Shown in pieces: positions 1,494 to 2,560 of a stretch of DNA of 64,000 bases (its first letter is position 1; every line of letters begins with the position of its first letter). The DNA lies in contig NC_037253.1 in assembly GCF_000002425.4 (NCBI RefSeq), positions 18,598,780 through 18,662,779 on the forward strand, in the 5' to 3' direction. This stretch comes from Physcomitrium patens (lineage: Eukaryota; Streptophyta; Bryopsida; Funariales; Funariaceae). Both the position numbers and the translations under genes were made by a program. Below the pieces are notes generated by a model. It had not been told where the DNA came from and ran no database searches. It was given only the letters and a program-made list of their open reading frames with translations.

Positions 1494-2560
1494 TTAGTTA
1501 CTACATCTAGCTTCTATCATTAGATCCTTCAATTTGATACTAAATACAAATAAAGATATAGTAACACTAGAGTACTTTTTTTCTAATATCTTTATAATTA
1601 TTAGGCTTTTTAAAGAAATATAATTCTTTATTAGTGACAAGAACTCACCTTTGACAAATCTTATTATTTTTTCATATGCTACTAAATTAATAATCATCTC
1701 TATTAATGATGAATACATATTCTTCAAGATCATATAATTATCTCTTTTGGATATAACTATTTCTTTATATATCATTTTACATTTATCAACCATGAGTCCA
1801 ATATATCTCTTCTTTATTATTAGAAGAAATGTTTCAAATATACTTTCAAATTTAAGTTTCATAGAAGAAAGAAATTTCTTTGATACTTCATTAAATATAT
1901 GTATACCTAATGTTTTGCATGACTTATAATCCTAAGTAGTATGAGATGTAAATATACACAAGTTAATATCACTATATATCAAATTTATAAGATACCTAAA
2001 TAATATGACATTCAATGCATGCATAAGTATGAACCTATCTATTATTGATATAGACTTTGTACCTTCTATAAATTATAGATATGAAGAATTACAAATCCTA
2101 TATGATCTATATACAAAATTGACAGATATCTTTAGAGCAAGCTTTTTTTTCTTCAAGAATTACCATTTCTATATGTATAGAAGTAATAGATTGTATTTTA
2201 ATTTTTTTTCTCTTTAATATTAGTATTTTTAATAGAGATGGTACTAATTCTAGAAGCTTTCTACCAAAAATATAAGACTTCTTATCAGATACATATATAG
2301 TGAAACAAGGTTGATTAAAGTTCTTCTTAATAAATATTGAGTAATATATATTATGATTTATTATAATAAAAGGATGCAAACTTGATAAGTCAAGCAAAGA
2401 ATACCACTTCTAAATTCTAAAAGTAGGATTTGACATTATAGCTTCATTATATTCAAATTCTTCAAGTAGTAATTCTGTCTTGTTAAATACAATACATTTT
2501 AATTGTAACATTCTTTGTATAGTTGAGACTTCATTTTTATCTGCTGATCCTTGGTATAGA
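1494..2560 (-). pseudogene. family B DNA polymerase relic, NCLDV (giant virus) type
   Basis: Read on the minus strand, several polymerase landmarks appear in the right order. At about 2320-2390 the motif SLHPFIII followed by HN matches palm motif A (SLYPSII). At about 2180-2270 an L-x-x-L-L followed by a KRKK cluster matches the finger-helix region. At about 2049-2069 a decayed I-E-G-T-K-S stands where YGDTDS is expected. At about 1770-1800 is KKRYIGL, followed by a ...KRDN...Y...I motif typical of the thumb-side KKxY segment of NCLDV polymerases. Frames change and stops intervene, and the catalytic aspartates of motif C are lost, so it cannot be active. The exonuclease end upstream is not recognisable and the C-terminus stops early at 1494. 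In living viruses this enzyme copies the viral genome. Cellular Pol delta is the main alternative; the GIV-x-KRRDN-like stretch fits viral members better. Confidence 0.75.

Follow-up and report, generated by a model that had tools for sequence, protein, structure and literature searches.

A decayed giant-virus-type insertion in the moss Physcomitrium patens

In P. patens, a stretch of 64,000 nucleotides (here called the window; positions 18598780-18662779 of contig C1) harbors a dead and old insertion, which almost certainly derives from a giant virus of the Nucleocytoviricota type and is one of about two dozen in the nuclear genome. The viral DNA is found at 1455-10720 and is composed of a broken family-B DNA polymerase (PolB) gene, a DUF5757 gene, RPB5 and two virus-linked open reading frames (ORFs). 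It has been rearranged by an in-place inversion, by loss of the exonuclease half of PolB and by two inserts. This copy makes no polymerase and displays no sign of present function. The assignment is based on homology, gene neighbors, chromosomal location, the decay spectrum and the separation of the polymerase family from cellular DNA polymerase (Pol) delta. A scenario that would account for these data is one where giant-virus DNA entered the moss nuclear genome, gave rise to about two dozen related copies through insertion or duplication, and was not under coding selection after insertion. Information would then have been lost mostly through C-to-T change, the pattern expected where silent DNA carries methylated cytosines, with further erosion by one deletion, one small inversion and subsequent inserts.

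A decayed family-B DNA polymerase on the minus strand of the window is confirmed. Two pieces match the Pfam DNA_pol_B profile in the correct order, i.e., 1494-1931 (9.2e-12, profile positions 241-378) and 2107-2409 (2.2e-4, profile positions 62-137, where the 20.6 bits are below the curated cut-off of 23 bits), which bears out the claim of an earlier note on this DNA that ordered PolB motifs are located on this strand. That note placed the polymerase at 1494-2560. The gene is indeed found there, while the homologous stretch identified by blastn against the other copies is slightly wider, 1455-2622, and covers the C-terminal half of the protein (palm, fingers and thumb) with frame changes and stops. 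At the C-terminal end, approximately the last 42 residues of the frame of locus L003 (about 65 of those of P0002) are unmatched in the window. Comparison of 1455-2622 with the relative P0008 gave 151 bits; among 200 dinucleotide shuffles used as a control, one gave any match, at 22.7 bits.

The polymerase motifs are recognizable but altered. In motif A the window has DLSSLHPF, where 10 of 18 readable copies have DFSSLYPS, and KKRYIG is the same in 14 of 20 copies. Motif C reads YSDINL, where 10 of 20 copies display YGDTDS; because this catalytic motif is changed, the window polymerase is dead regardless. In the last block, the window has KRDNY, 13 of 20 copies have RRDSC and three have KRDSC, i.e., KRDN is a product of decay. 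The earlier note had used this block as a marker of asfar-, pox- or mimi-like viruses, an argument that fails for this reason, and a kinship with Asfarviridae, Poxviridae or Mimiviridae by way of the KRDN signature was rejected.

Next to the polymerase, at 2623-2650, lies a minus-strand deletion point at which PolB has lost about 1.2 kb relative to the copy on contig C25, and with it its N-terminal and exonuclease half; in blastn, window position 2622 corresponds to position 2779 of L003 and window position 2660 to position 3973. Adjoining the very start of PolB is the C-terminal part of the DUF5757 gene (2651-3696, minus strand), which is ~68-75% identical by blastn to those of the loci L029-L047 that reach there. 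The middle part with the domain (3704-4247, blastn) is instead on the plus strand, inverted relative to the other aligned copies, and yields a PF19061 (DUF5757) match of 1.8e-10 at 4039-4251 on that strand. The N-terminal part is again on the minus strand (4269-4530, right limit approximate; blastn matches from 4269-4301). Since the gene remains on the minus strand to either side, the middle part is attributed to an inversion in place, and a different virus as the source of the opposite strand was rejected. The 715-residue ORF of locus L031 was identified by Pfam as DUF5757 (9.4e-30).

The RPB5 gene is split between residues 139 and 140 by a non-viral insert of 2,716 bp (4676-7391). Using the L031 RPB5 ORF (RPB5_C in Pfam, 7e-14) in tblastn, residues 140-171 were found at 4580-4675 (3.5e-8) and residues 1-139 at 7392-7811 (62.9% identity over 140 positions, 1.2e-52, with a DNA match to 7840), both on the minus strand. 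The GC content of the insert is partly higher, and clear terminal repeats or a target duplication were not seen. Further along, on the plus strand, are remnants of the two virus-linked ORFs, orf243 (residues 79-242 at 7846-8351; tblastn to the ORF of the C25 copy, 1.5e-39) and orf266 (8358-9145; tblastn, 1.7e-60), which in the C25 and C13 copies reside downstream of PolB, on PolB's own strand. The segment 9155-10583 has no viral match and harbors a repeat that a repeat search also located at 17225-18189 and 24595-25524; we refer to it as a transposable-element-like insert. It is followed by 137 bases (10584-10720, plus strand) that match the sequence just past orf266 of the C25 copy (blastn, 73.9% over 138 bp, 9e-16). 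The left flank, 1-1454, has no match among the viral loci compared; a plus-strand ORF of 108 residues at 1086-1412, with no Pfam family match, adjoins the viral stretch.

In a scan by short pieces, matches to viral loci were obtained for 46 of 67 pieces of 1455-4675, for none of 57 pieces of 4676-7000, for 137 of 1,297 pieces of 7001-64000 and for 32 of 220 pieces of L049, the locus to the left of the window, while none of the reversed control pieces matched. The matches in 7001-64000 and L049 proved to be the RPB5 segment 7392-7840 and otherwise repeats, presumed to be retroelements, that are present in some of the loci.

The insertion is joined to the chromosome in the assembly, which contains 470,438,890 bases in 101 contigs. 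To its left, an Integrase_H2C2 piece is found in L049 within 10 kb of the window, and to its right a reverse transcriptase/RNase H frame at 30733-31485; we take both to be parts of Ty3/gypsy elements. The description of the tract as one without retroelement motifs thus holds within 1455-4675, where no retroelement pieces were seen, and does not hold on either side. Contamination of the assembly by viral or microbial DNA has a practically negligible probability: the locus is at 18.6 Mb of a 30.2-Mb contig, retroelement pieces flank the viral stretch on both sides, decay is heavy, a related family resides on many contigs, relatives are found among P. patens UniRef entries, and a piece of the window is 98% alike in another sequence, P0001. 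No points in favor of contamination were found, and the earlier reading of the tract as a plant-genome insertion rather than a contaminant join stands. Elsewhere in the window, a GeBP-like piece is seen at 55849-56274, and the segments 11931-12915 and 44290-45090 consist of tandem-repeat-bearing sequence that is also found alongside the viral copy of C25 (L130, ~928-2165 and 5577-6830).

The window copy is part of a family. A search of the genome with the piece 1497-1931 gave 23 matches, 22 of them outside the window at 41-61% amino-acid identity. For 19 of these 22 (C8, C3 and C14:2.665M were left out), DNA identity to window 1455-2622 is 73-77%. A PF00136 profile search gave 45 matches, some of which are probably exons of host polymerases. 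DUF5757, which we take to be a marker of giant viruses, was found at 21 places in the genome and gave no match in 14 control genomes. At 12 of these places a PF00136 match is found within 5 kb, in 11 cases on the same strand, the window's being the only one on the opposite strand. The D5_N profile has seven matches, five of which are within 17 kb of a PolB match, and other copies gave Pfam matches to RPB5 and to an XPG-type nuclease. In other words, linked viral genes are present both in the window (DUF5757 and RPB5) and elsewhere (XPG nuclease and D5_N). A capsid gene (PF04451, Capsid_NCLDV) was not found in the genome, a result of little weight since the control for this profile matched nowhere. 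Some copies have neighbors on the same strand (C14 at 2.665/2.672 Mb and C19 at 7.344/7.365 Mb).

The viral type of the polymerase, proposed in the earlier note and checked here on related unbroken copies, is upheld by phylogeny. In a 74-row PolB tree (60 proteins from the best 120 of 512, and 14 of at least 80 viral loci), obtained with a quick method, five moss-type rows, including three from P. patens UniRef, and seven environmental rows form one clade with an SH-aLRT value of 100, distinct from the 20 rows of cellular Pol delta; the trees did not include named giant viruses or Pol zeta. An AU test on 30 of the 74 rows rejected a grouping of the moss-type and environmental rows with Pol delta that leaves out 11 other rows (p = 9.6e-6). 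The environmental rows of the clade are 43-52% identical to the L003 protein. In a piece tree with 15 stop-free copies, the window piece itself pairs with P0001 (100/100) inside a 19-row moss-type set (99/99).

These data bear on the possibility that the fossil descends from the Pol delta or zeta of the moss itself, as a processed or decayed pseudogene. Such an origin would agree with structure searches, where the best match of piece 1497-1931 is Pol delta (3iay, 4.8e-5), as is that of profile A1, and with the UniRef name of the P. patens copies. The zinc finger PF14260 is nevertheless absent in the L003 frame and in P0002-P0016 (the window copy is devoid of that end), DUF5757 and RPB5 adjoin PolB, and the family groups with environmental PolBs of ~860 residues, away from Pol delta. 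A Pol delta pseudogene was rejected on the basis of the tree and the AU test, and we consider an origin from the moss's own polymerases very improbable. Also against the viral reading, the structure search with piece 2110-2409 gave an archaeal PolB as the best match, and no giant-virus polymerase is seen among the 60 chains listed for profile A1. With E values up to 0.1, the L003 frame matches only PF00136, PF03104, PF13482 and PF10108 in Pfam; PF03175 (DNA_pol_B_2), the marker of Polinton or protein-primed PolBs, is absent at this threshold.

In UniRef, the viral-type PolBs P0002, P0005, P0006 and P0007 of P. patens are named "DNA polymerase delta catalytic subunit", which is likely a misannotation of gene models that do not correspond to the loci end to end: P0002, P0005 and P0006 are 100% identical to genome loci over the first 113-119 residues and 93.7-95.3% identical over all or most of the gene model. 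These entries, retrieved with the open PolB frame of L003 (contig C25), identify the host as P. patens. Among the best 120 of 512 proteins, the nearest relatives outside the moss-type set are the environmental PolBs P0008-P0010 and P0012-P0016, mostly of 846-884 residues, at 41-51% identity. Single-piece searches of IMG/VR for free relatives found none, and profile A1 found at least 80 loci there at 22-30% identity, of which the 14 placed in the tree all fall outside the clade. Relatives of both PolB and DUF5757 at 70-83% were also seen, P0003 and P0125 each being listed with a 28,401-bp contig and P0004 and P0128 with a 7,613-bp contig; these represent either other mosses with insertions or free virus.

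Of the 20 copies compared, that in the window is the most diverged, with a mean DNA identity to the other copies of 75.2% (78.1% for L014 and 84.2-90.5% for the other 18). Its GC content, 0.229, is the lowest (0.25-0.36 in the other 19), and its terminal branch has a length of 0.29 changes per site, the median being 0.044. The substitution excess in the window is 2.64 for C>T relative to T>C and 2.80 for G>A relative to A>G. Where the other copies have a cytosine, the window has T at 62% of CG, 42% of CHG and 43% of CHH sites, and CG loss was highest in all six copies examined (e.g., 27/11/10% for CG/CHG/CHH in L001). The pattern points to cytosine methylation as the probable cause of decay, although CHG loss in the window does not exceed CHH loss, which counts against this reading. 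The published P. patens insertions are reportedly cytosine-methylated.

Changes private to one copy were counted in the 17 of 20 copies that are longer than 1,100 bases. In the window, only 40% of these changes (n=63) are C>T or G>A, and they are distributed 19/19/25 over codon positions 1/2/3, at rates of 0.086/0.077/0.158. Because they still favor third positions, part of the window divergence may predate insertion. Pooling of the 15 other full-length copies, with L014 set aside, gives 32/29/49, and L001, L003 and L004 together display 1/1/15. The third-position excess is clear in the pool and absent in L002, L007 and L016, and separate insertions are therefore only moderately supported. Divergence of the copies partly as working viral genes is likewise moderately supported; as we read the data, the copies then decayed in the genome, that in the window for the longest time or at the highest rate. 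If the neutral rate in mosses is ~9.4e-9 per site per year, the age of the window copy would be ~30 million years. This figure is a guess at the upper end, since mutation is faster at methylated cytosines and some of the change may have preceded insertion.

The similarity of the copies raises the question of whether all stem from one insertion, i.e., a mobile element of giant-virus genes that multiplied in the moss genome. About two dozen copies are present, DUF5757 is located upstream of PolB on the same strand in 11 of them, the downstream genes are identical in kind in C25 and both C13 copies, and some nearby inverted pairs are 96-99.9% alike. Matches between copies nevertheless end at differing places in the C25, C13, C16 and C1 flanks. 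A fixed unit with common ends was considered, where C25 matches both C1 and the window to ~220 bp past orf266 and the two C13 arms match each other to ~270 bp past it; this reading is weakened because C25 and C13 share only ~20 bp past orf266 and C1 matches C16 and C13 further out. The third-position excess, pooled though not copy by copy, also indicates change under selection. Multiplication of a mobile element is thus quite unlikely, and we infer instead insertion from several related viruses rather than one.

To our knowledge, giant viruses that infect land plants have yet to be isolated, and the moss fossils constitute a record that giant viruses reached the germ line of a land plant. Within this record, the window copy is an old point in a series of differently decayed copies, useful for dating infections and for measuring the erosion of silenced foreign DNA; the known picture is unchanged by it. 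The literature searched makes no mention of "DUF5757". Giant-virus insertions in P. patens are already known, and the present finding is correct but ordinary. A passage of PMC5294986 attributes to P. patens a DNA polymerase and one further core gene of a putative Pithoviridae group, and cites the inserts as described earlier (Maumus et al. 2014). Excerpts of other reports describe the P. patens viral load as among the largest reported (PMC11244446), silenced Pimascovirales homologues, some loci of which are expressed (PMC12142844), and traces of giant viruses (PMC7466625). Hence, in the earlier note's phrase "candidate endogenous giant-virus insertion", the insertion is substantiated, with DUF5757 and RPB5 as neighbors, while "candidate" is out of date because passages of PMC5294986 and PMC12142844 refer to an earlier description of such inserts (Maumus et al. 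2014). The assignment of the moss copies to a virus family, putative Pithoviridae or Pimascovirales, is that of the passages in PMC5294986 and PMC12142844.

The window copy resembles the published P. patens NCLDV insertions (Maumus et al. 2014, Lang et al. 2018) in species, kind of PolB and clustering of viral genes, and differs from the other insertions in being the most diverged of the 20 compared and internally rearranged. Repeated endogenization tied to DNA methylation or epigenetic silencing is described in parts of reports on Amoebidium (PMC11244446) and Acanthamoeba (PMC12210455), which, in contrast to the moss, are protist hosts; the likeness is one of description, not of sequence. An excerpt on Rhizophagus irregularis (PMC10640383) describes an endogenous, nuclear viral region of 1.5 Mb and viral DNA polymerase genes in fungi, i.e., one long continuous region in a fungus compared to many short ones in the moss.

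The join at 7840/7844, where the start of RPB5 meets orf243 and orf266 in opposite orientation, is oriented as in a head-to-head dimer that has lost its center. Moss insertions might partly derive from inverted viral dimers (head-to-head or tail-to-tail), as would arise from replication through closed ends, and the window join would then be an old dimer remnant. If true, the dimers record in fossils the replication form of a land-plant giant virus. Sets in opposite orientation within 25 kb are found at C4:1.152/1.162M (99.94% identity over 1,786 bp), C13:10.77/10.79M (96.8% over 3,346 bp and, further in, 96.7% over 3,223 bp, around a 9.2-kb spacer), C15:9.045/9.063M (96.0% over 1,280 bp and 91.7% over 108 bp) and C2:12.154/12.174M (98.4% over 381 bp). 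In their longest viral matches these pairs are closer than most copies, which average 84-90%. A derivation from dimers is nonetheless unlikely, because a plain later inversion would account for the window join just as readily and the C4 pair is both short and nearly identical; the C2 pair, which is based on 381 bp only, lowers the odds further. Two further pieces are found at the C2 pair, one repeated and retroelement-like, the other in direct orientation.
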